From the IMG/VR virus record IMGVR_UViG_3300045806_000017, positions 1-64,000 of that record: a stretch of DNA of 64,000 bases; one strand, 5' to 3'. The notes under the pieces were generated by a model. The model was not told where the DNA came from. It was given only the letters and a program-made list of their open reading frames with translations, and did no database searches. The translations under genes and the position numbers were made by a program. Below are positions 1 through 43,869 of this stretch, one piece after another (position 1 is the first letter of the stretch; the number at the start of each line of letters is the position of its first letter). The DNA is from a virus.

Positions 1-198
1 ACAATTTATTATAGAGATAAACGTAAATTTGACTTAGATAATATTGTTAGTGTAATAGCTAAATTTTTACAAGATAGTCTTGTTGGAGCAGGTATCATCG
101 AAGATGATAACTATACAATAATTGTTTCATCTAGTAATTCATTTGGTGGTATATCAAAAAACAATCCACATTGTAAAGTAACAATAACAGAGGTATAA
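1..198 (+). CDS. rusA: RusA-like Holliday junction resolvase, 5' truncated
   Basis: The open frame runs in from the left edge and ends at TAA 196-198, so only the C-terminal 65 residues are present. They contain the RusA signature: a basic stretch followed by DLDN, then a helix, then GAGIIEDD, the aspartates that bind the metal ions of this endonuclease family. RusA dimers cleave four-way DNA junctions, which in a phage helps resolve replication or recombination intermediates before packaging. The next gene starts at once after the stop (TAAATG), so it is part of a rightward operon. The N-terminus cannot be judged. Confidence 0.8.
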   Translation, partial: TIYYRDKRKFDLDNIVSVIAKFLQDSLVGAGIIEDDNYTIIVSSSNSFGGISKNNPHCKVTITEV

Positions 199-871: not shown

Positions 872-1073
872 GATAGAGGTATCTTTTGTAGAACATTTAT
901 TATCTGAATGTTTAAAAGATAAACAACAGTTAGCGTGTAATGAAAAGCAGCTTTTTGAATTATCTAAAGAATTCTTCCAACTTCAAGATGATAACAATCG
1001 TCAAATGGGTGTAATGACCGAGTATCAAAGAGAGATTAATATGTTAAAAGCTCAACTAGAATCCTCTAAATAA
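864..1073 (+). CDS. small coiled-coil hypothetical protein (69 aa)
   Basis: The start overlaps the end of the preceding membrane-protein gene by eight bases and has AAGGA upstream. The product is largely helical with heptad-like Leu/Ile spacing over residues 20-66. No family is recognised. A hairpin follows the gene at 1101-1122. Confidence 0.6.
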   Translation: MIEIEVSFVEHLLSECLKDKQQLACNEKQLFELSKEFFQLQDDNNRQMGVMTEYQREINMLKAQLESSK

Positions 1074-1100
1074 GACGATATACTAAACGAGTAATACAAA

Positions 1101-1122
1101 CGATAGGGGTAAAGCCCTATCG
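1101..1122 (+). other. 8-bp perfect stem-loop between genes
   Basis: CGATAGGG pairs with CCCTATCG around a six-base loop (GTAAAG). It lies between the 864-1073 gene and the 1157-1420 gene and is not followed by a T run, so it is not a classical intrinsic terminator. It may be a processing or mRNA-stabilising element. Confidence 0.5.
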
Positions 1123-1156
1123 TGCTTTAAATCGAATCCTAGGAACTTTAAATACT

Positions 1157-1420
1157 ATGTATGATGCTAGTTCAATTAAGATACTAAACCAAGAAGAAGC
1201 AAGTAATAGATTTGAATTTACTTATGTATTAGAGCTTATGGAGAAGTATCCTATGAGAAGTGAACAGAACATTAAAGATGGTGTTGCTGCTTGTATTCGT
1301 ATTGGAATAGACCCTAAGTATTATGAAGACTTCTACCTTAAAGGTGATCCATCAGTAATTAGGATTAGAGAGGTAGAAACAGTATTTACTGAAATTCAAC
1401 AAAAGAATAAATTAAAATGA
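1157..1420 (+). CDS. hypothetical protein (87 aa)
   Basis: Starts with ATG after an AGGAA about ten bases upstream. The composition is mixed helical and charged, with no cysteine clusters, membrane segment or known motif. Its stop overlaps the start of the next gene (AAATGA), so the two are translationally coupled. No function assigned. Confidence 0.65.
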   Translation: MYDASSIKILNQEEASNRFEFTYVLELMEKYPMRSEQNIKDGVAACIRIGIDPKYYEDFYLKGDPSVIRIREVETVFTEIQQKNKLK

Positions 1421-1758
1421 AACTAAACGAATATAAAACAACAGAATCCTATAAAGCTACTGGTGCAGTTTATGGTAACTTTTGGGGTGGAGTTAGTAGT
1501 AGTTATCCTTCAATAACTATTGAAGGTGGTACCTTAGATGAGATAAAACATAAAGCTAATAAAGCATTAGAGGATGGTTCTATTGATTCAGGTATAGGAT
1601 ATGAAAGTATCAAAGGAGCATTACTTAATGTAGTAGAAATTACTACTATTGATGTTGAAGGACATACCTTTACTAATGAATCCGAATCTGAGCTAATTGT
1701 AGGTGAACTTACAGATGCTGAGAAAGACTTTCTTAGGGATTACATGTCTTGGTATTAA
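1417..1758 (+). CDS. hypothetical protein (113 aa)
   Basis: Coupled to the preceding gene by a 4-base overlap. It contains a Gly/Ser-rich segment (residues 20-32) and an acidic C-terminus ending DYMSWY. No family is recognised. It is the last rightward gene before the convergent end of the late block; only 79 bases separate it from the stop of the giant vRNAP gene. Confidence 0.65.
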   Translation: MKLNEYKTTESYKATGAVYGNFWGGVSSSYPSITIEGGTLDEIKHKANKALEDGSIDSGIGYESIKGALLNVVEITTIDVEGHTFTNESESELIVGELTDAEKDFLRDYMSWY

Positions 1759-1837
1759 GTCTTAAAAGAGATATTCATAATACTTTGATAACTCTAATAA
1801 GATATCCTTCTTAAATTCAATCCTCACGCATTATAGG

Positions 1838-4800
1838 CTATAACCCAGACACTACAGGTAATATACCTAGAGAAGAGAATAACTTTTTAGGTATATATGC
1901 TGGAGGAGTAATTAAAGCATTTGCTATAGGGCTAGCATCAATTGCTGCAAATAGTGATGAAGTAGGTATAGCAAATTTATTCATACCTGTATTCCATATC
2001 CAATCAGAAGCTCCTAACACATCTTCAAGTATTCCTAATGCTAATAATCTACCTGCATGATTACCAAACATGTGAGCTAATACACCAATAGCTTTAGTAC
2101 CAAATTTACTAAACATAATTAAACCAATATCATTACCCCATTGAACTTTATCATTGGTAACAGAATGATACTGAACGAATAAGAATTTAGCTTTGTCTAT
2201 AGCAGATTCATAATCAAATTTAGTACCATTACGTTTAGCTTTTTCTGCTTCCCATTCAATAAAAGCAAACCTTGATGTAATATCACCCATTTGAGCTATC
2301 TCATTCATTAAGGTATATACCTTAGTCCCTTCAGATATGGTAGCTACTTTAAGAGTATCCTTAACCACTTTAGGTAACTTATCAAATAAGTTTCTAGCTC
2401 TTTCAGTCTTAGAATATAATTTGGTTTCATGTTTATCTTTATGAGCATTCTCTTCTGCAATCGTAGAAGCTAAACCTTCCTCGTGTAAGAATGACATTGG
2501 ATTATTAGATATAGCTGATTTAAGCTTATTCATCTCATGATCAATAGCCTCAGTTATATAATCTGGATTACCATAAGCATTACTTAAATGTGATAATAAA
2601 GCATCAGAATCTCTTCTAAACTGTTGTTCTGCTTTCATGGCTCTAATCTTACTTTGATAATAGAAAGGTATAGGCGTACCTTTTAATTTAGCAGTCATAA
2701 AGTTACTTGATTCATTAGCTGCTGATACAACACCGCTCTTCACTACAATAGTATCTTTAGCAAAAGAGATACCTTCAATCCACATAGATTCCATTGCTGT
2801 AATGGTAGCTAGATTAAATCCTAATCTCTTAGCCATATAGTAAATGTGATTACCGATATGTCTTTTCAAATCATCCTCTAATACAGGTTGAATCCAATTA
2901 GTTATAGTTTGTTTTCTATAACCAAACACAGTTCTTAATTCCTCTTCTGCCATATAAAATCCCTTTTCAGTACCAAACTTAGTTTCAAAATAAGCCTTAG
3001 TTTCAGTAGGTATCATATTCCATAAGTCTTTATACTTACCTTCTGAACCAACCCAAATCATATCGTGTCTTGCTTTATGACCCAAATCCTTCCAATAGTT
3101 ATATAATTTATCTACCAACTGATTGTTAAGTTTAGTTGCTTCATTTATGTAAGTTATAGCATTTTTCTGAGTAGCTAAATCCTTAAAAGCATTAATCGTT
3201 GGTTTAAGATATTTGTCTTTAGTAGCTTTATCTAATGTATATTCATATCTAATTACTTTACCTTGTTGATTAAATATAGCTACCCTTGAAACATTAGAGG
3301 TATTCTTCTGTTTAATATTATTAGTTGACTTAGTACCATCATCTTTGAGTTTAGCTTTCTCTCTATTCTCTGCTGCTTTGAATCTATCTGTCATAGTAAA
3401 TCCAGAATGAAAGTTACTTGATTCTGAGTTTCTACTTACAAAAGCCATAGCTTTAGAGTCGTAGTCTTGTTGTGTCTTTTCAGTAATTAAATACAGTATA
3501 CCTAGAGTAGTTAATGGATCATTAGGATCTCTTTCTAAGTTACCTATAATGGTAGCTCCCCAATGTTCTACTAAGAATTTCTCATCTTCTTTAGTACCTA
3601 AATAAATAGACCTAAATGGGTTATATGATGTAGGTATTTCACCATCATGAATAGTAAGAGCATGTCCTTCTTCGTGAGCTTTCTTTACATTCTCTCTGTG
3701 TACATTCATTACCTCATTCATTGCTTGAGGTTTATCTTTAAGTAATTTAACTATTTCATTTACATGGTTTACATCTTGTAAACCAATGGCATAAAGTCTA
3801 CTTAATTTAGTTACTAAATCTAACTCTTTTTGATACTTATCTTGAGGAATATTTCTTCCTTGTTTAGCAACTAAAGCAGCATTATGTTTACCTAAGCCAG
3901 TCTCTGTATATTTACCTAATACCATCATACTAGCTAGATTCTTAGTATCATTAACTAATTTATGTATTTGCACTTCTAAAGATTTAATTTCTTGGTTTAA
4001 TGCTTTGCTATCTTCTAATAACTCAATGAAATTAGTTGGGTAACTATCTCTTACAGAGAATAATTCTCCAGACAATACGACATTCTTAAATGCTGTATCT
4101 TGCAAATCATTAAGTACACCTACTTTCTTTTGATATTCTTGAACATCTTTAGCTGTAGCTGTATTACGTTCACCTTCAATAGTACCTTGATTAAGGATAG
4201 CATTCTCTAAAGGTTTGTTAGCTTTGGTAGTTCCTTTAATATCATTAACCTGATCTAATAATAAGTTTCTAATATTTTCATTTTTAATGAGTTTAATAGT
4301 TTCTCTTATCACTTTATTAGTTTCAAATCCTCCAATAGCAGGAAGAGTATCTGCGTACTTACCTAGTGCATCAACGAATTGAATTTTAGATCCTCTACCT
4401 TTAGCTACAAATTTAAGAGTTTTTAATCCTACATCCTTAGCTTTTTCAGATATAAAAGCATCACCTCTATCTACTACAGGTACAGTAGTATTTAAGTAAC
4501 CTGCTTTACCATTAGCAGCTAAAATAAGTCTTACATTTTTATCAAACATAATTAAAGGTTCTAAAGAATCTTTACCTTTAGCTACTTTAATAAATGAATC
4601 TAATACTTTTTTAAGAACATTAGATATTACTTCAATCCATGTAGCTTCTCTTACTTCATCACTTATTGTAGATGCACTTACTTCAGTTACCTTTAATTGT
4701 CTTGATTTAAGCTTTGTAAGTAATTCTCTAAATTCTTTGTTAGTTGAACCAAATGCTAAGAATTCCTGAACACCTCTGTTATATTTAACAACCATTGGTT

Positions 4801-7800
4801 TACCAGTAGTTGTATTTCTGACAGTTACATCAATAAAGTCTTTGTTATTGAATACATAACCATCCCACTTATCTAGAGACTTATCATCTTGGTTTCTAGC
4901 TTTGTATTTATTAAATTCATGTTCCAGTTTATAGAACTGAGTATCAACTATGTTTCTAATGTGCTTGTTATCATACAGACCATAAGCCGCCCATTGAACT
5001 GCATGTACAAATTCATGAGCAAATACTTCTTGAGCAGACATTTGAAAAGGATCTAAATCCTTAGACATTGCTTGACCTAAGTTAATAGCTACTTTCTTTA
5101 ACTCAGCAGAATACTGCCCGTATGTGTATGTAGCTTTACTAAATAAGAGTAATTCAGTTTGTTCTACTACTGGAGCTATTACATGAGATACGAAGTTTCT
5201 TAAGAATGTGTTATGTGTCTTATCTGTACCTTTAGGTATAGCATCAAATTCAGATACTATATTATCTGCTGTAACATCTTTAATTAAGTCTGCTTTCTCG
5301 GTAAGTAAATCTTTAGCATTAGGTGTTGAACCAAAGGAATCAAAGTAATCTTGTATTTCTTTATTAATCATATCTTCTGTAACATTGTATTTTTTAGCCC
5401 AACCTCTAATTCTAATCGGTATAAGCTGATTTTTAGATTCACCTTCATCAGTTAAGTCATGTAATATTTCTTGAAAACTATTACGAGTATCTTCATCTAA
5501 ACCAAGATTATTATCTTCATTGGTCTGAGTTGTTGAAGGTTTTATTTCTTCTTTATTAGACTGAGCAGTAGTAACTTCTTTCAAACTATCCTTAGTTTTT
5601 TGATAAACATCTCTAATAGCTTGTCTTGCAGCTTCTTGTTTTCTTGAGGCTAAAGGTGCTTTACGTTGTCCGTAATATGTTTCTATATCTCTTGTTCCAA
5701 TACCTGCAAAATCTTTTGTAAGTATTGGTGTTTCTGTTTTAATAAACTTTGTTCCATTCCATGTAAACCATTGTTCATTACTTGTGTTCCAAACATATAA
5801 AGGCTTATTCATAGCTTTAGCTAGTTCTACTGCTGTACCAGTACCACCTTCAACAGTCTTATAGTCTGGTTTAATTTTAGCAATAGCAAAGATACTCTCA
5901 GCATTATTTACTTGATAAAAGTTTCTTACTTGTAAATTCTTTTGAATAATTTGATTTGCAGTATCTTCAGGTTTTATTGAATAATCTTTCTTTAGGAATT
6001 TTAAGATTTGTTGTCTTGCATATTCCATTTGAGTTTTAGTAAGAACTGTTGCTTTTACTTTAAGTTTTTCAAGTCTTGTACTTAATTTTTCATTTCCACT
6101 ATCTCTATAGTGCATGAAGTTTTTAACACCAAACTCTCTTCCTATAAGATCAAAATCAGTATCTGCTCCATAAGCTCCACCTGAATGATCTGTAAGTTCA
6201 GCCATAGAACTGAAATTTAATTCTTGTTTAGTAGGAGTAACTTCAATATCTGGAGCATACTCATCTGGAAATATATTTAATCTTGGATCAACTGAATCAA
6301 GTATTTCAGATGAACCATTAGAGTCTTGTCCACCATACTGCATAACTCCACCAACAGGAATATTATTCCATATTTGTTTTTGTCTTTGTATAGCTAAACG
6401 TCTAGTGTCTGATTTTAGTCTTTCAACAAATTCATCTAAATTATTATAGTGTGGAATTATTTCTGCATTATCTTTACTAACAGGAATGTAAAAACCTTGT
6501 CTATTAAATAAGCCAGTATCAGCTTTAATGAATGAAGTATTAAGTTCTTTAGCAATATCTGGATTAGCTTGCATATATTCTTGTACTCTTTCAAGATTAT
6601 CTACTGCACCTTGAAATACATCAAATGAATTTAAACTATCAATTAAAGAACTATTAAGTAATTTACTACCTTCAACTGCTTCTAATAAATTAAAGATAAA
6701 AGCATCATGTACAGCTAATCCTTTAAACTTAGACTTCATCATATCAATCATAACATTTGAATCTCTGTTATGAATATTAGCAATAGTTACACCAACACCT
6801 AATGAATTAATAATAAGACTTAAAGCATGAGCTGTAGTTGATTTAGGTAAATCTAATTCTTCAATATGAACTTCACCATCTTTATCAGTTACAGTATATT
6901 TAAGTTTACCTGTCTTAGAATTCCATCCTGTTTGAGTTCTATATGCTGCTGTATGATTTGAACTTCTTTCTGAGTTCCATAACTGTAAATCTTGTTCTAG
7001 TGACTCAGAATTTTTAGTAGGTGATCTAGGTTGAATCTTAATCAAGTCAGCAATAATCTTATCCATTTGTTCTGCTGAAGGTTCTTTACCCTCATTAGCT
7101 CTAAAATATTCTAATTGCTTTCTTGTTGGATGTAGATTATCTGGATGTAATTTAATATACTGTTCATATTGAAAACGTAACAATTCTTTTTTTAAACCAA
7201 GTTTAAATACTTCTCCTACCACAAAGTAAGCATCATTAAGTATTTTTCTATTTTCAATAGTATGCCCAAAATTATAGTTAATAGCATATTGTATGGATTC
7301 TCTAAATAATTCATTTACAGTACCAACTATAGAAGCATAATCTTTCTGAATTAAAGAAAACTCTAATAAATTATCTAGTGTAAGTTTAACTACAGAAGCT
7401 TTATTATCTTCTCCTCTTACAACTTTACTATCTACATACCGATTACCTTCTAATTTAGTTGTACCTAAAATAGTTTGTATCTGAGTTTTAAGAACTTCTA
7501 ATTTAGCTTCTTTTTCTTCTGGTTGTAAATTTGTATCTTTAAACAGTTTTTCTAGTTCATCATAGAAAGTAGCAATAACAGTATCACCAACAGAGTTAGC
7601 TAACTTGTCTGTAGATTTACCAAACATAGTGAGTAATAAGATTGGTTTAGCAAAGGTTCTTCCTGGTTTAGTTATTTTACCTTTAGCATCTATTAACTCA
7701 CCTACAAAGTGTTTTATAGCTCTTAGTTGTGCTGTATCTTCTTCTCTATCTAATGCTTCAGCAAATACTCTAGCTATCTGTTCATAGTTATCTTCATTGG

Positions 7801-10800
7801 TTAAATCCTTCTCTTTTATAGTATTCTTCCATGTAGCATAATCCATTGTTGGATCTTCAAATAATCCTGCTGCTGCAAGAACATCTTTCATTCTTTCAAA
7901 ATTATCAACACCAGCAAGTAACACTAAACCAATCAATACACCATTGGTAATACCATCAACTTCTCTACCTATATTAGTCTCAAATTCCTTTGTAGCTGAA
8001 TACATAGATAAAGCTACTAACCCATTAAGTGTATGAGCTTTCTCTTTACCTTTGTGAACTGCGTTAATAATAGTTCTTTGGTCAAACTCTTTACCTTCTT
8101 TTTGCTTATTAATTTCATCAATAGTTTTTTGATTAGCTTCAAGAATCTCTTGGAACTTAGGATTTATTTGTTCCTTGGTTAAAGACTTAGCTGCTACACC
8201 AAATGCTTCTAATACAGCTAATTTAAACTGTGTTACAGCAAATTCATCACTTGGTTTAATCTTCACAAAGTAGTTCTTAGGAGAAGATAAATTTCTTATC
8301 CATTTATTGTTTTGTGGATGACCTACACCAATGCCTCCAATACGTCCTTGATTCCAGAAAGTAGACATAAAGTATAATGGTTTAGAACCTTGCTCAGATA
8401 GCTCTAAAAGCTTGTCTAAGGCTTCTTTTTCCTTTTCATAAGATAATACCTTACCTCTATAAGATCTCTCCTTAGACTGCTGTTTTTGCTCTTGGAAATC
8501 TACTCCTAACTCCATTTCTGCTCTAGCATCTTCATTCATAGCAAGATACAGCTTCATTGTAGGAGTATCTAATGTATGTGGTGTTTGAACATACTTAGTT
8601 AAAGCATCTATACGTTCAGGAGTAATCTCCTGTGTAGTATGTAATCCAGTAGCTTTCTTACCTTTCTCTTTATTAAAACCAAGAGAAGCTAATACACTAG
8701 CTTTATTAGGTTTCTTGGTTCTAGGTAATTCTTTTTCATAAGCAGATTCAAACATAGAAGTAATATCTTTACTTCCTGCTTTAAGAGTATCCAACACTTG
8801 TTTTAAATTATATTCAATAACAGATTTCTTATCTTCAATATCAGAAGCTATTCTTACAAATACTACAGATTGATCTTGTAATTCACTTGGTTTAAGTTGT
8901 GTAGTTACTTTTGGATTAAGAACTTCGTTAAGTTTAAACCTATCAAAGGTAGAATTTTCTACAACAGAATATGTAACATACCCCATATTGTTTAAAGTAT
9001 TTAAAGCATGTAAACCAAGAGATAGTTTTAGTTTAGCTATTTCATTCTCTGGGTATGTTTTACTTGCAGTAAATTTCATAAGGTTAAATATGTTATTACC
9101 TAATCCTGTAGCTACCATTGCTCTTACTGAACCAAGTTCAGATAAAGCATTAGATATTTCATTCTGAGGGATAGTATTCTCATCCATTGATAAGATAAAT
9201 TGAACATCCTTTTCAAAATTAAATAAAGTATCATTACCTTTATTCATAAGCCAATCAATACTACCCATAAACATAGCAGATACTATATTAGGATCAAACT
9301 TACCGTTAGAAACATTTTGATTAGCTAAAACTATTAGAGGATCATCTTCAAAAGGTTTTTCTAAATATGATTTTTTAAATGCTTCTTGAAACTTAACTTC
9401 TTCTTTTTTAAGAGTTTCAAATGCTTTTAAACCATCCTTAGTATTAATTGTAAACTCGAGTAAATTAAATAAGTTTTGAAACAATCTAGGGTACTTACCA
9501 AACAAAGAATCTTTAACCTTATTAAATGAAAATATTTGAGATATAGGATTTGGTATAGTACGTTTTATAGGTTTAAGTGATAATACTCCTTTTTTTAACT
9601 TAGCTATATTAGCTAACTTAAATTCTTTAATTTCCTTTTGATACTCAGGAGTAAATTCTTGTTTAGTAGGTACTTCAAATTCAGTTTCTACATTTTCATT
9701 AATTATTTTTAAATAAGATTCTATAAGATTTGAAAGTAATGTATTTTCTTTAGGAGAGAATCCAAGTAAATTAGATACTAGAGATATAAATCTATCCCAT
9801 AATGATTTACTTCCAATACCTTCAATATCATTTAAAATTTTGTTTAGATGGTAATCAGTAAAACCATAAGTAATTATTTCATGTACATCTGTAACTACAC
9901 CATCATTAGAAATTCTATTAACATTAAAAGCATATCTTTTATTATCAATAGTCTTAACTATCCAGCCATCTTTATCTGCTATACTTTCTAATTTATCTAA
10001 TATAGTTCTAAGTTGTTTGTGTACTTCAGGGTTAAAGTCAATTATATTCTCAGTAACCGCGTGAAGTGTTTCATGAATTACTGTACCCATAACTCTTGTA
10101 AAAGCATTTTTATCTTGAGTATATGCTAAAGTTTCAGGAGCAATATGGATAGTATTATTTCCTGCTGTATATAATCCCCCAAATCCAGGATCTTCTTTAG
10201 ATGTATGTACAAGAAATTTAATATCTTTAGGTAATATCTTTAATAAATGTTTAGCAATTATCCCTAATCTATTACTGTTTTTACCTATAAAAAACAATAC
10301 CTGCTGTAAAGTAACATCTTTAGTAAGCAATAATTTTCGCAATGCTTGATATTTATCATTCTCGGTATATTGTACTTCTGTAAGCTCCTGTGGTTCGATT
10401 ACAGACGTTTTATCTTCTGAGGTAATAACTTCTTCAGGTTTAGATGTTTCGTTGCTTATAGAAGATTCTACTGCTGTTGACGTTGCTTCCTCTGTAGGTA
10501 CTCCCTTAGAGCCTTCTTGGCTTGTAGTTGTTGATGCTCTTTGCTTTTCTTCGTATCCATTTAATACTTCCTCATAATTTTCAATATATTTATACTCAAA
10601 TTCACCATCTTTAATAAGTTGTTGAATTTCATTAAATGTTCTTGTATCTGTTTTCTCAGCCCATTCTAATAAAGATACGATACGTTCTTTAGCAATTTGA
10701 TCTTCAAAATCTCCCTGTTCTTTATGTAACCTTTCAGTAACTATTTCAGAACCTTCAGCGGTATATGTAAGATTTGCGTAATTACCTTTATGAAATAAAT

Positions 10801-13800
10801 CATTTTGAATTTTATCAATTAACTCATTATTATCTTCAAATACAAAACCATGTCCTCTTAATCTCTCTGCCATTTCGTCTAATGTAAGTGATGGTACTTT
10901 AGATTTACTATTAACTTTTTTATACCATGGGTATCTACCTTTATTAGGAGCTTCATCAATAAATTCTGATACAGCAGATTCTTGTAATCCCCCTTCTCTA
11001 CCAATTACTTCTAAAAGACTAAGAGTCTTATTAAACTTGGTTTTACCCTTAGATTTTTTAACAGACTTTATTTGTTGTGTATTTACAGGAGATGGTATAT
11101 TAGTATTGTCTTGATTTACTATAGTTGAATCTAAGGCATTCTCATCAGTCTGAGAGGTACTTTTAGTAGTAGAAGTAATACCAAAATGAGTATTAACTTG
11201 ATTTTGGATATTAGTTACAGCATCAGTCATTATCTTTGCTTCAGAATTAACTTGTTCAGACAGCTTCTTTGTTCCAATAATACTCGTAAACTTTAGAGAA
11301 TCATTATCCGTAAAAGGATTTCCTCTTTTTTGATATTCTTGTAATTGTTCTGTATATTTAGTTTTATCTGCTACAGTTGTTGCATTAGCTAATTTATTAA
11401 ATAGATCTGCTCTACCTGAATCGTAAGCTACCCACTTAGCTAGTTTATCTACCTTGGCTTGAATAAATTCTTTATCAATATTATTTGATAATGCTAATTG
11501 AATTAAACCAAGATGTTCTTTATAACTAGGTAGCTTACCTCCACCTACTAATTTATCATTAGCTACTTCTTCGGTAGATTTTCCTTTTAAATATTTAGCT
11601 TCATACTCTTTTAATGCAGTAACTAATTCATTATTAGATTTAACAAACTCAGGTGATAGTTTACTTGTATCACCTTCAATCATTGTTGAACCAAATGTAG
11701 GTAATATCTTTCTGTGTATCTCTTCTAAAGTATCCTTTGGATCAATAGTAATAGTACCTTTATTAGTAACTAAACCATTGATAGTATTTAATGCTTGTTT
11801 AACTGTTTTCTCTGTAGCAGGAGTAATATCTACTTTATCTGAATATACTTTAGAGATAGTTTTAGTTAATGCTGATATAGCAGTATCTTTTTTAGATGTA
11901 TCTGTTTCTGAAGTAGTAGGTAAATAATTATTTATAGCTATTGAATCAAAATCATTACTAGCTAAAGTAATTGTAGATAATCCGTCAGGGCGATTAGCAA
12001 TAATTCTATGTTCACCTTTTGGAGTTATAATATGTTCTTTAACTGTAACATCTAGTGTAGAGTCACCTCTTTTTAAGGTTACTTTAGATCCTTTAGGATA
12101 CGCTAGATCATAGTATTTAGAATCTTCTTCTTTAGATGTAGTTGAAGACGGATTCTTCACTACTTCTATGTTAGAACTTAGTTCAGTAGGTAAATCTTTT
12201 ACCTGAGCAGACAATCTAAGTAAAGCTTCATCGAGGTCAACTCCTTTATCTTCTCTTATTATAGAAGAGAATGTTTCAGATGCTTTAGGTTCTAAGTTCT
12301 TAGTTTCAATACCAGTGGTAGCTAATACATAAGGATCATTAACTGAATCACTTTCTGCATATTCTTTTTGTTTAGCTGTAGAAATATCTTTAAGAATATT
12401 TAATGTATCTTTATCTTTAGTTCTACCAATATCATTAAACAATGAACCAGTATTAGGTGATGTAGCATCTGTTGTAGCTGTAATAATGCTGTCTTGAATA
12501 TCCTCTATTGTAGTATTAGGATCATTAATAACATCAGAAAATCCTGTTGGATTACCTTGGTTCATTTGTGCTACTACATGGTGTAGTGTAGTTTCAGCTA
12601 AAACAGACTTAGCTATAGAATTAAATTCTGGTGATTGTTCTCCATTTAATGCTTTACCAATAGCATTAGCCATTTGTTGTTTTTCAGCTAAAGTACCATT
12701 GTAAGGATAATCTTTAATACCTTGGTTTAATACAGATTCTGCTGTATCTGGAGTAGCATTAATGGCATCATTAGAATACCTATCAAGAATAGTCTTAGAA
12801 GGCTCTAAATCTGCCTCTGGTGGCACGATATTACTTTCAGTGGGTGTTTGTGTATCTGAGGATGTTTTATGAGCTTGTAGAGCATCATGTAACAATGTAG
12901 GTGTGTGCATACCTCCACCTAATAGACCACCAACAATAGCTCCTGAACCACCTGCTTGACCTACACCTTCCATTACATTTTCTTTACCTAAAGCAATGTT
13001 TGTAGCTACTTGTTCATTTACTGATTGAGGAAATTCTTCTACTAAACCTTCAGAAGTTACTGCTTTAAGAGCTTTAGTAAATGCAGAACCTTTAACTCTA
13101 TTTACGCCAACTAAAGCATCTGCTGCTGTAGCACCAAGTAATTTATTTGAACCAGCACCAATAAGACCTGTAATAGCACCTCCTATAATAGCTGGTGCTA
13201 TGTATTGCCTAGGATCTACATTAGCTTCTTCTGCTTGGTTTACAATAGAAGATGCTGCTTGAGTACCTTCAGTTAAACCTCCTATAGTTAATAACTGTTT
13301 TTGTACAGGAGCAGAACTAATATATTTAGTTGCTGCATCTTTACCTACTTGGGTAATTACACCATCAACAACTCCCCCAGAAGTTTTAGATGCAACTTTC
13401 ATAGCTATGTTATCTACAATCCTTCCTGTAACTCCAATAGGTACAGCTAATTGAGCTATGTTAGCAGGTAAATCATGTGTAAGTGTTGCTCTAGGATTCT
13501 CTACAAATGCCTGTACTGAATCCACAACATCAGAAGATAATGCCATAGCATTCTCATATACACCCTTTGGTTTATATCCTAATTCATCCCGTAATCTTTG
13601 GGTTTGGTTTGATCTGTATTCAGAATCCTGTCTTGACTTAGCTAAAGCATCAGATTGATATAGTGCATCAGTAGCAGCATCTAATCTATTTGGTTCATAT
13701 TTAAGATTGTTTAACGTGTCTTTTGCTTCATCCGATATAGGTAAAGCATCTATTAATGGTTTAGCATAATGAGTTCTATTTTGTAGAATATTTTGTAATT

Positions 13801-14641
13801 CGTAACCTGTACCAATATCACCAACTTTCTTAATAACATCACCTACATCTCCTCCAACAGAATTACCTATAGCTTGTATAGGAGCATTCAACGATGCAGA
13901 AACTAAACCACTAGTACCTGTAGCTATATTACTCAATACGGTAGGTGTTTTAGTTAAAAGAGTACCTGCAAAGTCTTTAGCTGTATCTATTAATCCACCA
14001 CCATCTTTGTTTATTTTAGCAAAGTTATATTGTGTGTTATATGCAGCATTTAACTCAGGAGTATTCATAGCATCAACAGCAGAGGTATTCTCATTAGAGA
14101 ATTTCATATCTCCTAAATGTCTACTAAACTCATCTAAATTATTTTTTTCATCTAAAGCAAAGTCTAATCCAGTTTTACCTTCATTAACTTGTTTAAGCTT
14201 ATCTGCTAATACTTGTTTAGCTTTATTACCCCTATCATATACATCTTGGTTTGTAGCTGGATTAAACCAACCATGAGACCATTCATTATCAATAGCATCT
14301 CTTTGTTTTTGTAGTCTAACAGCTACTTTAGGATTTGATTCATTACCATGATTAACCTCATAAGAGTTAAATGATTCACCAAAGTTATTACTCTTAAGTC
14401 TTACATCAATTGGTTTAATATTAGGGTCAAAAGCTTTATCTGCAATACTAGGATTAATCCTAACAGTATCAGCATCTAATGCTTCAACAGATCTATTCTT
14501 TAAATCTGCTGAACTAAAGCCTAAATTATCTCTTTTCTGAAATACCTTATCTAAAAGACTTATCTTCTTTTCTTGAACCAAATTTGTATTATCATCAAAA
14601 GAATCTTTTGTAAAAGTAGAACCACCAAACGAAGAAGACAT
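1838..14641 (-). CDS. giant virion protein with N4-type virion RNA polymerase, SLOG-like and HExxH domains
   Basis: This 4267-residue protein is the last gene of the leftward late block. The middle third carries the single-subunit RNA polymerase motifs: NQGRIGG with Arg2100, DGITNG with Asp2229 (motif A), Arg2328-x3-Lys2332 to Phe2340-Gly (motif B) and His2645-Asp2646-Ala (motif C). The order and spacing agree with N4 vRNAP, which travels in the virion and transcribes early genes. Residue 2340 is Phe where T7 RNAP Tyr639 and N4 Tyr678 sit. A SLOG/YpsA-like domain follows (SGGAYGADTD around 2820-2828; GIGTRD farther on). HExxH motifs lie at 1523-1527, 3209-3213 and 3656-3660. Gly/Ala-rich hydrophobic stretches in the first 600 residues and at the C-terminus suit membrane passage during ejection. 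The architecture is that of a polyvalent ejected protein. The RNAP call is firm; the accessory domains are motif-based. Confidence 0.88.
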   Translation of the reverse strand: MSSSFGGSTFTKDSFDDNTNLVQEKKISLLDKVFQKRDNLGFSSADLKNRSVEALDADTVRINPSIADKAFDPNIKPIDVRLKSNNFGESFNSYEVNHGNESNPKVAVRLQKQRDAIDNEWSHGWFNPATNQDVYDRGNKAKQVLADKLKQVNEGKTGLDFALDEKNNLDEFSRHLGDMKFSNENTSAVDAMNTPELNAAYNTQYNFAKINKDGGGLIDTAKDFAGTLLTKTPTVLSNIATGTSGLVSASLNAPIQAIGNSVGGDVGDVIKKVGDIGTGYELQNILQNRTHYAKPLIDALPISDEAKDTLNNLKYEPNRLDAATDALYQSDALAKSRQDSEYRSNQTQRLRDELGYKPKGVYENAMALSSDVVDSVQAFVENPRATLTHDLPANIAQLAVPIGVTGRIVDNIAMKVASKTSGGVVDGVITQVGKDAATKYISSAPVQKQLLTIGGLTEGTQAASSIVNQAEEANVDPRQYIAPAIIGGAITGLIGAGSNKLLGATAADALVGVNRVKGSAFTKALKAVTSEGLVEEFPQSVNEQVATNIALGKENVMEGVGQAGGSGAIVGGLLGGGMHTPTLLHDALQAHKTSSDTQTPTESNIVPPEADLEPSKTILDRYSNDAINATPDTAESVLNQGIKDYPYNGTLAEKQQMANAIGKALNGEQSPEFNSIAKSVLAETTLHHVVAQMNQGNPTGFSDVINDPNTTIEDIQDSIITATTDATSPNTGSLFNDIGRTKDKDTLNILKDISTAKQKEYAESDSVNDPYVLATTGIETKNLEPKASETFSSIIREDKGVDLDEALLRLSAQVKDLPTELSSNIEVVKNPSSTTSKEEDSKYYDLAYPKGSKVTLKRGDSTLDVTVKEHIITPKGEHRIIANRPDGLSTITLASNDFDSIAINNYLPTTSETDTSKKDTAISALTKTISKVYSDKVDITPATEKTVKQALNTINGLVTNKGTITIDPKDTLEEIHRKILPTFGSTMIEGDTSKLSPEFVKSNNELVTALKEYEAKYLKGKSTEEVANDKLVGGGKLPSYKEHLGLIQLALSNNIDKEFIQAKVDKLAKWVAYDSGRADLFNKLANATTVADKTKYTEQLQEYQKRGNPFTDNDSLKFTSIIGTKKLSEQVNSEAKIMTDAVTNIQNQVNTHFGITSTTKSTSQTDENALDSTIVNQDNTNIPSPVNTQQIKSVKKSKGKTKFNKTLSLLEVIGREGGLQESAVSEFIDEAPNKGRYPWYKKVNSKSKVPSLTLDEMAERLRGHGFVFEDNNELIDKIQNDLFHKGNYANLTYTAEGSEIVTERLHKEQGDFEDQIAKERIVSLLEWAEKTDTRTFNEIQQLIKDGEFEYKYIENYEEVLNGYEEKQRASTTTSQEGSKGVPTEEATSTAVESSISNETSKPEEVITSEDKTSVIEPQELTEVQYTENDKYQALRKLLLTKDVTLQQVLFFIGKNSNRLGIIAKHLLKILPKDIKFLVHTSKEDPGFGGLYTAGNNTIHIAPETLAYTQDKNAFTRVMGTVIHETLHAVTENIIDFNPEVHKQLRTILDKLESIADKDGWIVKTIDNKRYAFNVNRISNDGVVTDVHEIITYGFTDYHLNKILNDIEGIGSKSLWDRFISLVSNLLGFSPKENTLLSNLIESYLKIINENVETEFEVPTKQEFTPEYQKEIKEFKLANIAKLKKGVLSLKPIKRTIPNPISQIFSFNKVKDSLFGKYPRLFQNLFNLLEFTINTKDGLKAFETLKKEEVKFQEAFKKSYLEKPFEDDPLIVLANQNVSNGKFDPNIVSAMFMGSIDWLMNKGNDTLFNFEKDVQFILSMDENTIPQNEISNALSELGSVRAMVATGLGNNIFNLMKFTASKTYPENEIAKLKLSLGLHALNTLNNMGYVTYSVVENSTFDRFKLNEVLNPKVTTQLKPSELQDQSVVFVRIASDIEDKKSVIEYNLKQVLDTLKAGSKDITSMFESAYEKELPRTKKPNKASVLASLGFNKEKGKKATGLHTTQEITPERIDALTKYVQTPHTLDTPTMKLYLAMNEDARAEMELGVDFQEQKQQSKERSYRGKVLSYEKEKEALDKLLELSEQGSKPLYFMSTFWNQGRIGGIGVGHPQNNKWIRNLSSPKNYFVKIKPSDEFAVTQFKLAVLEAFGVAAKSLTKEQINPKFQEILEANQKTIDEINKQKEGKEFDQRTIINAVHKGKEKAHTLNGLVALSMYSATKEFETNIGREVDGITNGVLIGLVLLAGVDNFERMKDVLAAAGLFEDPTMDYATWKNTIKEKDLTNEDNYEQIARVFAEALDREEDTAQLRAIKHFVGELIDAKGKITKPGRTFAKPILLLTMFGKSTDKLANSVGDTVIATFYDELEKLFKDTNLQPEEKEAKLEVLKTQIQTILGTTKLEGNRYVDSKVVRGEDNKASVVKLTLDNLLEFSLIQKDYASIVGTVNELFRESIQYAINYNFGHTIENRKILNDAYFVVGEVFKLGLKKELLRFQYEQYIKLHPDNLHPTRKQLEYFRANEGKEPSAEQMDKIIADLIKIQPRSPTKNSESLEQDLQLWNSERSSNHTAAYRTQTGWNSKTGKLKYTVTDKDGEVHIEELDLPKSTTAHALSLIINSLGVGVTIANIHNRDSNVMIDMMKSKFKGLAVHDAFIFNLLEAVEGSKLLNSSLIDSLNSFDVFQGAVDNLERVQEYMQANPDIAKELNTSFIKADTGLFNRQGFYIPVSKDNAEIIPHYNNLDEFVERLKSDTRRLAIQRQKQIWNNIPVGGVMQYGGQDSNGSSEILDSVDPRLNIFPDEYAPDIEVTPTKQELNFSSMAELTDHSGGAYGADTDFDLIGREFGVKNFMHYRDSGNEKLSTRLEKLKVKATVLTKTQMEYARQQILKFLKKDYSIKPEDTANQIIQKNLQVRNFYQVNNAESIFAIAKIKPDYKTVEGGTGTAVELAKAMNKPLYVWNTSNEQWFTWNGTKFIKTETPILTKDFAGIGTRDIETYYGQRKAPLASRKQEAARQAIRDVYQKTKDSLKEVTTAQSNKEEIKPSTTQTNEDNNLGLDEDTRNSFQEILHDLTDEGESKNQLIPIRIRGWAKKYNVTEDMINKEIQDYFDSFGSTPNAKDLLTEKADLIKDVTADNIVSEFDAIPKGTDKTHNTFLRNFVSHVIAPVVEQTELLLFSKATYTYGQYSAELKKVAINLGQAMSKDLDPFQMSAQEVFAHEFVHAVQWAAYGLYDNKHIRNIVDTQFYKLEHEFNKYKARNQDDKSLDKWDGYVFNNKDFIDVTVRNTTTGKPMVVKYNRGVQEFLAFGSTNKEFRELLTKLKSRQLKVTEVSASTISDEVREATWIEVISNVLKKVLDSFIKVAKGKDSLEPLIMFDKNVRLILAANGKAGYLNTTVPVVDRGDAFISEKAKDVGLKTLKFVAKGRGSKIQFVDALGKYADTLPAIGGFETNKVIRETIKLIKNENIRNLLLDQVNDIKGTTKANKPLENAILNQGTIEGERNTATAKDVQEYQKKVGVLNDLQDTAFKNVVLSGELFSVRDSYPTNFIELLEDSKALNQEIKSLEVQIHKLVNDTKNLASMMVLGKYTETGLGKHNAALVAKQGRNIPQDKYQKELDLVTKLSRLYAIGLQDVNHVNEIVKLLKDKPQAMNEVMNVHRENVKKAHEEGHALTIHDGEIPTSYNPFRSIYLGTKEDEKFLVEHWGATIIGNLERDPNDPLTTLGILYLITEKTQQDYDSKAMAFVSRNSESSNFHSGFTMTDRFKAAENREKAKLKDDGTKSTNNIKQKNTSNVSRVAIFNQQGKVIRYEYTLDKATKDKYLKPTINAFKDLATQKNAITYINEATKLNNQLVDKLYNYWKDLGHKARHDMIWVGSEGKYKDLWNMIPTETKAYFETKFGTEKGFYMAEEELRTVFGYRKQTITNWIQPVLEDDLKRHIGNHIYYMAKRLGFNLATITAMESMWIEGISFAKDTIVVKSGVVSAANESSNFMTAKLKGTPIPFYYQSKIRAMKAEQQFRRDSDALLSHLSNAYGNPDYITEAIDHEMNKLKSAISNNPMSFLHEEGLASTIAEENAHKDKHETKLYSKTERARNLFDKLPKVVKDTLKVATISEGTKVYTLMNEIAQMGDITSRFAFIEWEAEKAKRNGTKFDYESAIDKAKFLFVQYHSVTNDKVQWGNDIGLIMFSKFGTKAIGVLAHMFGNHAGRLLALGILEDVLGASDWIWNTGMNKFAIPTSSLFAAIDASPIANALITPPAYIPKKLFSSLGILPVVSGL

Positions 14642-14649
14642 ATTATTCC

Positions 14650-15570
14650 TTATTTATAATTTTGCATTGCTTCTGTAAACTTATCCATTTTTAATCTCTT
14701 TCCTACTGTAAGAGGTACAGTTGCTCCTACAATTGATCCTATACCTGCTCCAGCTAAAGCTCCTCCAGGACCACCTAAAGAACCTGAAACTGCCCCAACA
14801 CCTGCACCTGCTAATCCACCTTCTAAGGCATATTTTAAATACTGATCCCATGTAGGGTTAAAGGTATTAGCTGTAGCATTAGAAACTATTGCATCATATT
14901 TTTTAGGATCATTTGATGCTTCATTTAACTGAGCAAAAAGAATATCTTTTTGATCTTTAGGCAAATCATTTGCTCCCATATTATCTAAAGTTAATTTAAT
15001 ATCCTTTGGTTTAAGATCAGTATCTTTCTTTGGTTTAGCGTCAGCAACCTCTTTAGCCATTTGTCCTTTAAGCAATATCTCTTGTAATCTGTCTACTTGA
15101 GAAGCATGAGTTTGAGGTTTACTTTGTTCTTGGAAAGATTGCATTGCTAATGGATTACCTTGAAGCATTGAATTAGTAGCTCCAACAATAGGATCAAATT
15201 GATAATCTTTTTGAATGTTAGCTACATCAGTTACTTCATTACCATCTGCTGTGTAGTATTTGCTATCAGAACCTTGTTTAACAGCATTACCATTGTAAGA
15301 CATACCTTTAACTTGTTTTGTGTCTTGTAGAGCCTTAGCGAAGCTCTGAATATTCATCTTGTTCTGTTCTGCCATATATGAAGGACTCTTCATTCTAGCG
15401 TCTTGATAAGCTCTATTATTATCTACAGCAGCTAATAAACCATCTTCTAAAGGAGTTACACTTTGTAGTTTTTGAGGGTTTAATTTGTTGAATATTGAAT
15501 CTTGTTCTTGTTCTGTTAGAGCATTATTTCTTCTAACAGTTTCTTCGTTAAGTTGTGATAATGCACTCAT
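14650..15570 (-). CDS. putative ejection (internal virion) protein, glycine-zipper type (306 aa)
   Basis: Lies eight bases before the vRNAP gene in the reading direction. The N-terminal two thirds are hydrophilic and Lys/Gln-rich. Residues about 245-290 form a Gly/Ala-rich hydrophobic hairpin (GGLAGAGVGAVSG, then GALAGAGIGSIVGA), a glycine-zipper pattern common in proteins that insert in membranes. The position next to the vRNAP corresponds to N4 gp51/gp52, ejected with it. The role in forming a DNA-translocating channel is inferred from context, not proven. Confidence 0.65.
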   Translation of the reverse strand: MSALSQLNEETVRRNNALTEQEQDSIFNKLNPQKLQSVTPLEDGLLAAVDNNRAYQDARMKSPSYMAEQNKMNIQSFAKALQDTKQVKGMSYNGNAVKQGSDSKYYTADGNEVTDVANIQKDYQFDPIVGATNSMLQGNPLAMQSFQEQSKPQTHASQVDRLQEILLKGQMAKEVADAKPKKDTDLKPKDIKLTLDNMGANDLPKDQKDILFAQLNEASNDPKKYDAIVSNATANTFNPTWDQYLKYALEGGLAGAGVGAVSGSLGGPGGALAGAGIGSIVGATVPLTVGKRLKMDKFTEAMQNYK

Positions 15571-16826
15571 TGCAAGTTCTCCATAGCTTGTTTATTTCTT
15601 TTATAGAAGTCTGAATTTCTATCTACTTTACCATATTCATTTAAAGAAGACATTCTGTCTTTCTTTTGTTGAGCTAACATTGCTTGAAATGCAGGATCTG
15701 AATTATATGAACCACCTACATTAGTAGCTTGGTTTGAATACAAAGGAGAGCTTCCAGGAGTGTCATATTGCTGTACTCCAGTAACTCCTGTAGATTTACC
15801 TACTGAAGATGTATCAGGCTTAAATTGAGCTATAGCATCCAATGTAGGAGACAATACTTGTTTCATATCAGGTACAGTTTGTGGATTATAAACACCATTC
15901 TGTACAGAAGGTATACCATTAGAAGCTTCAGAACCTGGATTATATTTTCCATTTGATATTGATGGTGGCTGTATTGGACTCATATTTTGAGTAGTAGGAG
16001 ATGTTGAGATATATCCTGTAGAATTAGGGTCTTCATTATAGGTTGGTAAATGTGCTTTAGATATATCATACGGTTTACCCGACATAAGAGACAAAATATC
16101 ACTTCTACTTCCTTCAGGATGCTCTCTTTCAGCTACTGCTTGTGTAGCTCCTTGAGGTGTTAAAGAACCTCTGTAAGCTCTATCTGCCATGCTTGCTGCA
16201 CTATATATATTTGCACCGTTACCTATAAGTTTTGCTGCTGGAGATTGTAAAGCTTCACCTAAAATACCTGCTTTATTACCAATGAATTTACCTACTCTAT
16301 TATCTGCTATTCCTGTACCAAATGATTGTGGTGTTGTTGGTGTAACATCTTTAATATCGGGTAACTTACTTATTTGAAATTCATTCCATCCTTTTTGTAC
16401 TTGTGCAGGATCAACCGTATTAGAGGATACTCCATTAATCGAAGGAGATTCCCAATTAACTAAACCTGGTTTTGGTTGAGTATATGATACTTTTTCAGGT
16501 ATAGATAATCCTGCTTCTCTTGAATCTAAATCATAAAGAGGTCTATCAACAGAACTATACTTACTTAATGCAGATTCTATCTCAGGAGAATATCCTTTAA
16601 ACTCAGGATGAGTTACAGGAAATCTTTCTCTGGTAATACCCATATCAGCATTATAAGATTCAGGCTGTATATATGGAGTAGTTGATTTTGTTACAGGTAA
16701 ATCTTTAGGTAATTTACTTTTAGTTTTACCATACCTTTGAATTCTATCTTTTCCATAGTTATCTAAGAATTCCTTTTCTGTTGGAGGAAAACTGCTAACA
16801 CTTGCTGTGAATGGTTGTATAGCCAT
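15567..16826 (-). CDS. putative virion/ejection protein, low complexity (419 aa)
   Basis: Overlaps the next gene in the block by four bases. Pro, Ser, Tyr, Asn and Gly dominate, with very few hydrophobic clusters, so it is probably largely disordered. It has one short Ala/Ile helix region around residues 185-215. The position between the vRNAP cluster and the 1052-residue protein matches the minor ejection proteins of N4-like phages. No catalytic motif seen. Confidence 0.6.
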   Translation of the reverse strand: MAIQPFTASVSSFPPTEKEFLDNYGKDRIQRYGKTKSKLPKDLPVTKSTTPYIQPESYNADMGITRERFPVTHPEFKGYSPEIESALSKYSSVDRPLYDLDSREAGLSIPEKVSYTQPKPGLVNWESPSINGVSSNTVDPAQVQKGWNEFQISKLPDIKDVTPTTPQSFGTGIADNRVGKFIGNKAGILGEALQSPAAKLIGNGANIYSAASMADRAYRGSLTPQGATQAVAEREHPEGSRSDILSLMSGKPYDISKAHLPTYNEDPNSTGYISTSPTTQNMSPIQPPSISNGKYNPGSEASNGIPSVQNGVYNPQTVPDMKQVLSPTLDAIAQFKPDTSSVGKSTGVTGVQQYDTPGSSPLYSNQATNVGGSYNSDPAFQAMLAQQKKDRMSSLNEYGKVDRNSDFYKRNKQAMENLQ

Positions 16827-16836
16827 ACATAATTCC

Positions 16837-19800
16837 TTACATTTCTAAATCATTAAATTGTGATGATAAATCTGCAAAGGGATCTACTTCATTTTCAAAA
16901 GTAAATTGAGTAGATAAATCACCAAAGATGTTATTTTCTAAACTGTACTTTTCCCATTCAAATACTAACTTAGAGTTCATTATTTGATTAACAAAAGTTT
17001 TAGATAATTGCTCTTGTCCTACCATGTATGTAGCTTTATCCCATGTAGGTGATACAGGTCTATATGCAGATATATTAGGTGCAACTGCTATTTTATACAT
17101 CATATCAGAAAAGTCTTGCTTTTCTTTATCAGCTTCTGTATCTGGGACATTATTAGCTATTCTTTGAGCTAATTCTTCTCTAGTATACTTACTAAGGAAT
17201 GAATCTAAACAAGCAAGCATAACCTCTTTACGTTTAGAGAATGGTACAAAATAATTCTTAGGTGTAGTTATAATCTCTTGTTGTTCATCTGTTAGTTCTA
17301 TTGATACAAGTAAATTTAAAGATCTTTGAACCAAGTTGTTTATATCATTTACTGTGTATTTAGTATCTTTCTCATAATACTTCATATCTGTTAAATCATG
17401 ATGCCATAGAGGTATTATGAATTGCTTTAAATCAACAAGTTCTTTTGGTTCAATAAGTGTATCATTAAAGGATACTTCAGCTACAGATGTATCTTTAACA
17501 AATGCACCTTGATTCAAAGAGTATGCTAATGAATCAGAATCTGTTCTATATTCTTTTGTATCATCCTTAGTTTCATAAGTACCTTCATCAATTTGAACAT
17601 TACTACTCTGTAAAAAAGGTAGTAAATAATTTTTGTTATACTCAATCTTTAAACCATGAATAGATATTTTAGTGTATGTGTTTAAAGTAGTTTGTTGATA
17701 CACCTCTAAGATAGCATTAGTGTAGTCGATTTCTCCGTTTATTATATAATAATCAGAGTTTATACCGTGTAGTGTTTGTGAAGGTGTATCATATACAGGA
17801 TATGAAAGATTATACATTGATGTATCAGGATTGTGTACAATATTAGAATCATAAGGAATTTCTCCTGATAATTCTTCTTTTTCAATGTAGTTAAATCTTA
17901 GATTAGTTTCATGTTGAGTATTTCTAATACTAACAATATTCTCTAAGTTATAAGCGTCTAGGTACTTATAATTATTATTGGTTTGATGGTCTTGGTAATC
18001 TAAGAACTTTTGCTTATCTACATTACATAGAGGTTCTAAGTAGTTAAATAACTCAAAGAAATATTTACTTACTTCTTCACTAGAATCATCTACAGCTAAA
18101 CCAAAGAACAGATATACATCCTTTATTATTTTATCTAACGTATATGTGTAGGTAGTATTTAATATATTTTTGTTTGTTAAAGCATCATAGTATGAAAATA
18201 GTTCAGGTGTTGAATCGTTCTGTTTAAAAGAATTCATCACAGGTGATTTGTATGTATCATACCTTGCCTTCACAGATTTTAGTATTTGAAAATCTTCTAT
18301 ATAAAATGTTAATTCTCTTTTTGTACTAAATACTTCTGTTAAACCAAACATATTTATAAATACATTTCTCAGTATTTCATCAGAAGACTTAGCTAATACC
18401 GAAGACAGAGCTTTTGGCTCTACTTCAGCTAAATCCTTCATATTTTGTTTGATAGGTATAGTAGGGTAGAATTCTAAATAACTTTCAGAATCATCTGGAT
18501 TACTTAGTAATGGTTTATCCTTTTCATCTATAAGTCCTTGTAAATAAGGACAATCATCTTCAGTTAAATAGATGACACCATATTGGGTAGGTATAGTATT
18601 TTTCTCAATATATACTATAACTAAATACTTTGGATCTATTGGTTTGTAAACTTCTTCAGTAAATACCTCTGGATTATCTTCCGTGTAATCCTTTCTTTTA
18701 GCAAAGAATATTTTTACCAAGTCTACATCTTTTTGATTGTAGCTCATCCCTGCTAAAGTAACATCCCTCTTACAAAAGTGTTGAGGCATAAGGTTAGCCC
18801 AATACAGAGAGTTACCAAACTTTCTAGATTTATAGTTATACCCAAAAAAGTCATCAGTTTCTGAATAATCTATTAGAGCTATTTCTAACCAAGTATTTTT
18901 ATTAAAATCTTTTTGATTTGTAATAAATTCTAAATTCTCAGGAATAGTTCCTTGCTCTTTATCATTTACTGTTACTGGCTTACCTTCAGAATCAATCTTC
19001 TTTAAATCTAATACAGCTACGTTAGCTATCCTATACTGTTTAAGTAATGAGAACATATCTTGATACTTAGATTCTAGTTCTTTTAATTTATTTTCAAACT
19101 GTAGACAAGCATCTGTTACTACTTTCAAGTTAACAACATATTCTTTTTCAGATAGATATTCGTCTTCCTTCAGAATGGAATACTTCTTATTTCTCTCTGT
19201 AATTAACTGTGTAAGAGTTGTTTTGTGTTCATTTTCATTCGTAACAACCTCTTCTAGTTGTTTTAAGTATAGAAGTTTTAATATAGAATCTTCTGTGTTA
19301 CTTTGATTTAAGGTGTCTAACGTATCTTGATAATCATTAAGTGTATTTTCTTTTTCTTGTAATTGGTTTTGTAAATCAAGATTATGCGGTAATGTAGGGT
19401 TGTTGCTAATGGCTGAAATTTCTGTAGAAATAGTTTTAATATCTATTTCTAAATAAAATTGTTCTTCTAATTTTTCAATATCTTCTATAACGTAAGCTTT
19501 GTTTTCATCACTTACCTTTGTGTTAAATTTAGTTAAAGCATCTGCTTTAGTTGTTATAGGAGGAACATCCTCTGGCATCTTATTGATAGTATTCAGTTCA
19601 TTTTGTAAGTCTTCAGCTTTTCTATCTTGATAAGCTTTACCTAAAAATATATCTAAATCTGTATAGAATTTTAATACATTCTCTTTCTCTTGTTTAATGT
19701 AAGCTATACAATTTTGTTCTAACTGAGCATAATCAATAAAGGTATCACTAAGATACCCATAACACATACCATAAGGAAATTGGTTTTCAGTTTCCTTATT

Positions 19801-40771: not shown

Positions 40772-40813
40772 ATATTTTCCTAATGAGGATTTCATCCTCT
40801 AAAGCGACAAAGA

Positions 40814-42573: not shown

Positions 42574-42736
42574 CTGTGATTGTGTAAAGTCTGTTCTTGG
42601 TTTCTCACAAACTAGAAACGTCTGTCTCATCCAAGATCCTGAGGATCTCTGGTGTGATGAATGTTTAGAGGAAAATCAACAACAGTTCGTCAATCAGCAG
42701 GATGCTGACTTTGATGAATGGTGTCAAACAATATAA
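42560..42736 (+). CDS. small cysteine-rich early protein (58 aa)
   Basis: I start it at the ATG 42560 with GAGGAG in front; the longer frame starts inside the preceding gene. The sequence has CYNCDCVK near the start and later WCDECLEE, two Cys pairs that suit a zinc ribbon. Acidic C-terminus. Coupled to the 42-residue gene. Family not recognised; DNA- or protein-binding via a zinc ribbon is plausible. Confidence 0.65.
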   Translation: MKCYNCDCVKSVLGFSQTRNVCLIQDPEDLWCDECLEENQQQFVNQQDADFDEWCQTI

Positions 42737-42741
42737 CAAAT

Positions 42742-43847: not shown

Positions 43848-43869
43848 GTAGCGTTAAATAGGAGTATTT

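Follow-up and report, generated by a model that had tools for sequence, protein, structure and literature searches.

A cysteine-free giant virion RNA polymerase of an N4-like phage, with a probably exchanged core block and candidate hairpin promoters

The window analysed here is the whole stretch of 64,000 nucleotides (positions 1 to 64,000 of IMG/VR virus record IMGVR_UViG_3300045806_000017), and an open reading frame of 4267 codons lies on its minus strand at 1838–14641, running from ATG to stop. In a profile search, the encoded protein matches phrog_2206 'virion RNA polymerase' with E=7.2e-212 over profile positions 36–861 and 989–3394 of 3406, and it is confirmed to belong to the family of N4 virion RNA polymerases (vRNAPs). 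That is to say, the original prediction of a giant virion protein with a complete N4-type RNA polymerase is borne out by this profile match, which places the protein in the vRNAP family, and by the fold and catalytic residues given below; its comparison of length was also correct, since 4267 aa exceed the 3500 aa of N4 vRNAP. The mosaicism of the gene, a second zincin, a SLOG-like domain and the meaning of Phe2340 were missed there. The idea that this is the largest vRNAP is ruled out by the relatives L018 (4332 aa) and G001 (about 4556 aa), the latter belonging to a syntenic sister phage (IMG/VR contig 3300014835_000015) that surfaced through the SLOG search. The order along the chain is N-region, zincin-like domain, RNAP core, SLOG-like domain, C1-type zincin and C-terminal domain (CTD), and this arrangement is new. 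The features of the gene are as follows:

1838–14641, minus strand: giant virion RNA polymerase (N4 gp50 homologue), 4267 aa, 0 Cys, phrog_2206
10442–14641, minus strand: N-terminal region, residues 1–1400, where phrog_2206 profile positions 36–861 match
9572–10426, minus strand: additional zincin-like metallopeptidase domain on the N-terminal side of the polymerase, residues 1406–1690, HETLH at 1523
6362–9421, minus strand: single-subunit RNA polymerase core, residues 1741–2760, from an AF2 model and its superposition on N4 mini-vRNAP
8342–8344, minus strand: Arg2100 (N4 R424), T/DxxGR motif, invariant in 93/93
7955–7957, minus strand: Asp2229 (N4 D559), motif A metal ligand, invariant in 93/93
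7622–7660, minus strand: motif B, R2328-x3-K2332-x7-F2340, from the alignment; Phe2340 codon TTT at 7622–7624
6704–6706, minus strand: Asp2646 (N4 D951), motif C metal ligand, invariant in 93/93
5513–6259, minus strand: SLOG/cpYpsA-like (DprA-like) domain by sequence or model, residues about 2795–3043, between core and C1 zincin
4442–5218, minus strand: C1-type zincin domain after the polymerase, residues 3142–3400, HEFVH at 3209
1841–4441, minus strand: CTD, residues 3401–4267; 89% aa identity to G001 when taken with the C1 part (3101–4267)

No cysteine occurs among the 4267 residues, whereas the composition of 20 other window proteins would predict about 39.5. The cysteine-free state is common among vRNAPs but not strictly universal, a few relatives having 1–2 Cys; it is also found in the N4 and LIT1 vRNAPs, and a connection with the route through tail and periplasm has been drawn (PMC3715699). 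When IMG/VR was searched with the window RNAP core alone, no close relatives were found, and megablast of 25 kb of the window against phages gave no match; relatives of the core were reached through the family alignment. The resulting set of 93 vRNAPs consists of the window protein, 12 from phage records and 80 IMG/VR loci, some of them near-copies. Four IMG/VR vRNAP ORFs (L019, L028, L045 and L067) contain the core in only about 2000–2400 aa with both ends closed, and are either split vRNAPs or frame errors.

Every residue named in the original prediction (R2100, D2229, R2328, K2332, F2340-G2341 and H2645-D2646) was found where it had been placed. In an alignment of the window protein with eleven annotated vRNAPs and TEMp-D2, these residues align with N4 R424, D559, R666, K670, Y678 and D951, the same sites being 1421, 1556, 1663, 1667, 1675 and 1948 in full-length N4; R2100, D2229, R2328, K2332 and D2646 are unchanged in all 93 vRNAPs. 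An AlphaFold2 model of residues 1741–2760, built from a 44-row alignment of the window protein and IMG/VR relatives, has a pLDDT of 83.8 and a pTM of 0.83. Its top PDB matches are N4 mini-vRNAP entries (Foldseek E 7e-25), followed by yeast mitochondrial RNAP and T7 RNAP. Superposition on N4 mini-vRNAP (VIA) gave Z 28.6 and an rmsd of 3.9 Å over 853 aligned residues at 16% identity; that is, the right-hand single-subunit polymerase fold expected by the original prediction was obtained, and the superposition implies that the motif aspartates are placed together. N4 mini-vRNAP was part of the training data of AlphaFold2, which limits the independence of the match and makes it support and not proof; for an identity of 16%, the support is still strong.

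In T7 and N4, the motif B Tyr enforces ribose selection, as seen in the mutants T7 Y639F and N4 Y678F (reportedly Kazmierczak 2002). At this site the window protein has Phe, and the 93 vRNAPs divide into 49 with Phe and 44 with Tyr, so named by the residue at the N4 678 position, which does not separate vRNAP members from non-members. Six Tyr/Phe changes were placed on the vRNAP tree, at least five of them forced by starred branches. A supplementary legend of 2010 (PMC3715699) already mentions natural Phe at this position in LIT1-type phages, and Phe2340 was dropped as a new oddity, being shared by about half of the family and covered by that legend. For the breadth and repeated switching of motif B Phe, no published description was found; the split means that the textbook mutant can be tested in wild enzymes.

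As for the domains around the core, residues 1–1400 may be the ejection/membrane part by analogy with N4. This region is 68% identical to L021 (residues 3–242) and about 50% identical to L048, and residues 1–547 have no match among annotated phages. The pre-core zincin is 57% identical to L048 residues 1124–1402 and weakly matches internal virion proteins (9sfn_G, E 3.5e-4; phiKMV gp37, about 25%, E 1e-5). In N4, the CTD is the region of autoinhibition and encapsidation. It has been reported that the N4 CTD lowers polymerase activity and that the N4 C1 domain carries HExxH (PMC12633501); HEFVH at 3209 of the window protein aligns with the HExxH of other vRNAPs. A recent internal duplication as the origin of the two zincins was considered and dropped, the two domains not being alignable by BLASTP.

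The domain at about 2795–3043 matches phrog_768 (E 2.7e-11), and its AF2 model has a pLDDT of 89. By VIA the model has a single outstanding match, 3imk (Z 12.3, the next being 5.6), and nothing significant was found by Foldseek alone. We take 3imk to belong to the cpYpsA clade, in line with the weak match to Pfam cpYpsA, which lies below the cut-off (E 0.099). By sequence or fold, the domain is related to the cpYpsA/DprA-like SLOG group. Within the sample examined, the only vRNAPs with such a domain are those of the window, G001 (same place) and Pylas (before the core); outside vRNAPs it occurs standalone or within other giant ORFs. Viral SLOGs are typically standalone and are possible counters to ADP-ribose signals (PMC9503650).

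Upstream of the vRNAP gene and on the same strand, the genes for the MCP (phrog_1357, E 1.5e-110), portal (phrog_1216, E 1.2e-247), tape-measure (phrog_2120) and gp54-like (phrog_2050) proteins stand in N4 order. Further genes of the window that matter here are:

14650–20987, minus strand: genes in N4 gp51–gp54 position, in gene order as N4 and very divergent from G001
14650–15570, 15567–16826, 16837–19995 and most of 19996–21201, minus strand: the ORFs of this position, with phrog_2050 on the last
46185–47102, plus strand: RNAP1 (N4 gp15-like), middle polymerase subunit, phrog_2166, E 6.8e-60
47650–48654, plus strand: RNAP2 (N4 gp16-like), middle polymerase subunit, phrog_2051, E 5.5e-97

The family Schitoviridae is described as having 59–80 kb genomes and three RNAP genes including the giant vRNAP (PMC7650795). 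The record here has 71,974 bp and contains RNAP1, RNAP2 and vRNAP as well as N4-type MCP and portal families. Its MCP is less than 60% identical to that of any annotated phage, and the phage is therefore placed in a new lineage of schitovirus-like phages. The two ends of the record overlap by about 134 bp, so that it looks like a complete, circularly permuted genome of about 71.84 kb; window positions 1–134 equal record positions 71841–71974, and a hairpin at 100 recurs at 71940. A family-A DNA polymerase is split between ORFs 57676–59241 and 59615–60715 (phrog_17 positions 518–922, then 931–1253). It is also in two parts in G001, with a longer gap, and represents either an intron or a true two-subunit enzyme. 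RNA ligase and ribonucleotide reductase large subunit genes (50554–51483 and 51954–53921) in the replication region have no G001 match.

Compared with known systems, Escherichia phage N4 gp50 shares with the window protein the order of N-region, RNAP core, HExxH C1 domain and large CTD, the catalytic residues, the lack of Cys and the gene order, and its 3-nt-loop hairpin promoters resemble the window candidates, although the stems differ. The cores are only 16% identical, and the window protein is 767 residues longer, has Phe for Tyr678, and has an extra zincin before the core and a SLOG-like domain after it. The LIT1/PEV2/LUZ7 vRNAPs (Migulavirinae, PMC3715699) likewise have natural Phe at 678, no Cys and predicted hairpin promoters, but their cores are 21% identical to that of the window, they have 3398 aa, they lie on a different branch of the vRNAP tree, and the SLOG-like domain was not found in them. 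Klebsiella phage Pylas vRNAP has the same SLOG-like module at 36% identity, but before the core (residues 982–1179), and has Tyr in motif B. The polyvalent proteins of Iyer et al. 2017 (PMC5512222) are injected multidomain giants, as the window vRNAP would be; SLOG is not named in the main text of that paper, and no account of a core exchanged over a retained CTD was found in it.

The closest comparison is with G001, whose vRNAP has the SLOG-like module in the same place and Phe in motif B. The MCP is 94%, the portal 91% and RNAP1 84% identical between the two phages, and the C-terminal part of the vRNAP (3101–4267) is 89% identical in amino acids and 91% in DNA, whereas the core is 25% and the N-region 37% identical, the ejection genes are unlike and the hairpin stems are changed. 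DNA identity is about 91% up to window position 5266 and about 88% from 20988 on, with only short G001-like patches in between, one of them of 206 bp at 95%. From the loss of similarity at 5266 and its return at 20988, the exchanged block can be drawn as follows:

5267–20987: block probably exchanged relative to G001, by DNA identity, about 15.7 kb, comprising the ejection genes and the vRNAP from residue 1 to about residue 3126

In the CTD tree, window and G001 are sisters with branches of 0.035 and 0.053, while in the core tree they lie on separate branches, and a tree that unites them is rejected by the AU test (dlnL 123.5, p 8e-41); this conflict between the trees leads to the conclusion that the core was exchanged. 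BLASTP against other relatives gives a similar picture, with the CTD 55% identical to L021 and the core only 24–28% to L021 or L048. Over 2485 pairs, core and CTD identity correlate with r 0.96, and window–L021 is the largest outlier. Sequence comparison thus gives good support to a block, made up of the core, the N-terminal region and the ejection genes, that was exchanged between phages otherwise closely related, the CTD remaining with the capsid genes. Window and G001 are also unlike in their tail-side genes, which fits a host-adaptation reading; an earlier proposal, made for tail fibres, is that schitoviruses exchange modules for host recognition and injection (PMC10579305). In the open-licence literature, no description of an exchanged vRNAP core was found. 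Between the gp54-like protein (19996–21201) and G001, alignments occur in several overlapping registers, a pattern suggestive of internal repeats that vary in number.

The G001 vRNAP gene crosses the contig ends and was joined across them, close to where DNA identity changes, so the discordance of core and CTD might be an assembly artefact, with two phages fused in the G001 contig and no exchange at all; the end of identity to the window lies 34 bp from that contig end. This is improbable, for the G001 ends join in frame (2+1 bases of one codon) with homology continuing across the join, identity is already dropping within the C part ahead of the contig end, and the other edge of the block (window 20988) lies inside the contig beside the 94% identical MCP. 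Moreover, the independent contig L021, with an uncut vRNAP ORF, has the same discordance (CTD 55%, core 26%). Fast divergence of the core in place, under selection and with no recombination, would agree with the variability of the ejection proteins and N-terminal regions and with the short high-identity patches that persist inside the block. Even so, it is very improbable when 91% DNA identity falls to none over a few codons, the trees conflict at the AU value given above, the G001 core is closer to the L048 and L021 cores than to the window core, and core and CTD identity otherwise covary so closely.

In N4, DNA hairpins with a 3-nt loop act as the early promoters, and recognition involves the loop purine and the stem (PMC4496689). 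Guided by the N4 loop, the sense strand of the early regions was scanned for stems of at least 5 bp with a TTC or TCC loop, and three hairpins were obtained in the window:

40785–40799, plus strand: candidate early promoter hairpin GAGGAT.TTC.ATCCTC, from the scan, overlapping the annotated start of a minus-strand ORF; G001 orthologue at 34304 with the stem changed
44697–44715, plus strand: candidate early promoter hairpin AAACGGAC.TTC.GTCCGTTT, preceded by a terminator-like hairpin and followed by ORF 44811; G001 orthologue AAAGTGGCT.TTC.AGCCACTTT, with compensatory changes
48765–48779, plus strand: candidate early promoter hairpin GCGGTG.TTC.CACCGC, between RNAP2 and ORF 48943; G001 counterpart GTGGTG.TTC.CACCAC at 37321 and 45066

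These three compare with 0.17 expected in the early region of the window (p 7e-4), and the early regions of ten non-reference records contain 29 sense and 7 antisense hairpins against 2.2 expected in shuffles; related phages have about three each, with phage-specific stems. N4 as positive control gave hairpins at 95, 564 and 4553, presumably P1, P2 and P3, plus one more. The hairpin at 95 carries the P1 hairpin sequence (PMC12633501), and the TTC loops of the window are the loop of N4 P1. The strict N4 closing pair (C-TYC-G) finds one rightward hairpin only, while relaxing the pair and keeping the loop finds all three. Stem likeness is 0.67 within records and 0.29 between them (permutation p 5e-5, six records picked for having at least three hairpins); among the three stems of the window itself, likeness is only 50%. 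Between orthologous hairpins of window and G001, loop and pairing are kept with several stem pairs changed on both sides. All seven window and G001 hairpins have GG at stem pairs 3–4, which is suggestive only, one or two such columns being expected by chance with three hairpins. On sequence grounds, the three TTC-loop hairpins are candidate early promoters of the vRNAP. No family-wide survey of vRNAP promoters was found in the open-licence literature.

Stems of 6–9 bp would fold as RNA too, and the same hairpins could instead be RNA elements such as terminators or processing sites. The position of 44697–44715 directly after a terminator-like hairpin and of 48765–48779 downstream of RNAP2 would suit this, as would the excess of hairpins with any loop (42 against 15). 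Nevertheless, an RNA role is unlikely: no T run follows the hairpins, loop and orientation agree with N4 P1–P3, the early region holds about three per phage, and the stem sequence changes between orthologues while pairing and loop are kept. The Phe in place of Tyr in motif B might be read as the mark of a non-catalytic relic retained as an ejection protein. With all five catalytic residues and the fold intact, and with Phe frequent in the family, LIT1-type phages included, that reading is scarcely credible.

Taken together, the window protein is very probably the vRNAP of a new N4-like phage, with an exchanged core block and three candidate hairpin promoters. By analogy with N4, the enzyme would be delivered by the virion and transcribe the early genes, a reading that gains support because cysteine is lacking, the gene order is that of N4, RNAP1 and RNAP2 are present and three N4-type hairpins occur. 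In such a mechanism, the cysteine-free chain would be packaged and threaded through the tail with the ejection proteins, the single-subunit core would start early RNAs at 3-nt-loop DNA hairpins (template GAA) on the incoming DNA, and early products would lead to RNAP1/RNAP2 and then to the middle genes, as in N4. A need to fit capsid or packaging may explain why the CTD is kept, the part that is exchanged may adapt to host envelope or defence, and each core may read its own stem sequence. More tentatively, the vRNAP could be regarded as a two-part machine in evolution. Its CTD would stay with the capsid, and its front part, taking in the core, the N-region and the ejection genes as well as accessory domains like SLOG, would be exchangeable, each exchanged core bringing or forcing a promoter-stem code of its own while the TTC/GAA loop stays fixed; Phe cores would act with relaxed sugar selection at the start of infection, and the SLOG-like domain would enter with the first DNA and blunt ADP-ribose-type defence signals.

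For polymerases that are injected together with DNA, N4 vRNAP serves as the model, and what is known of its promoter rule comes largely from N4 itself. The family itself is known; the window protein adds a new domain arrangement, a well-supported core exchange and a readable candidate promoter set. One loop with phage-specific stems beside strongly different cores would make the recognition code readable by comparison, and a family set of hairpins and cores would give orthogonal single-strand-template polymerases. Exchange of the catalytic core inside a giant packaged protein would also show which part is tied to the capsid.

Some other structured elements were observed in the window. At 42735–42780, a TTCG tetraloop is closed by a perfect stem of 8 bp (AGCTACTC.TTCG.GAGTAGCT), identical in G001, the flanking intergenic stretch having diverged. 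A 53-bp island at 43806–43858, in a variable early intergenic region, is 94% identical to G001 and contains an AGAGAAC/GTTCTCT inverted repeat. Outside the early region, TATCATC.GAA.GATGATA at 93–109, which occurs again at the record end, is a hairpin of the leftward type, with a stem of 7 and its GAA loop on the plus strand.
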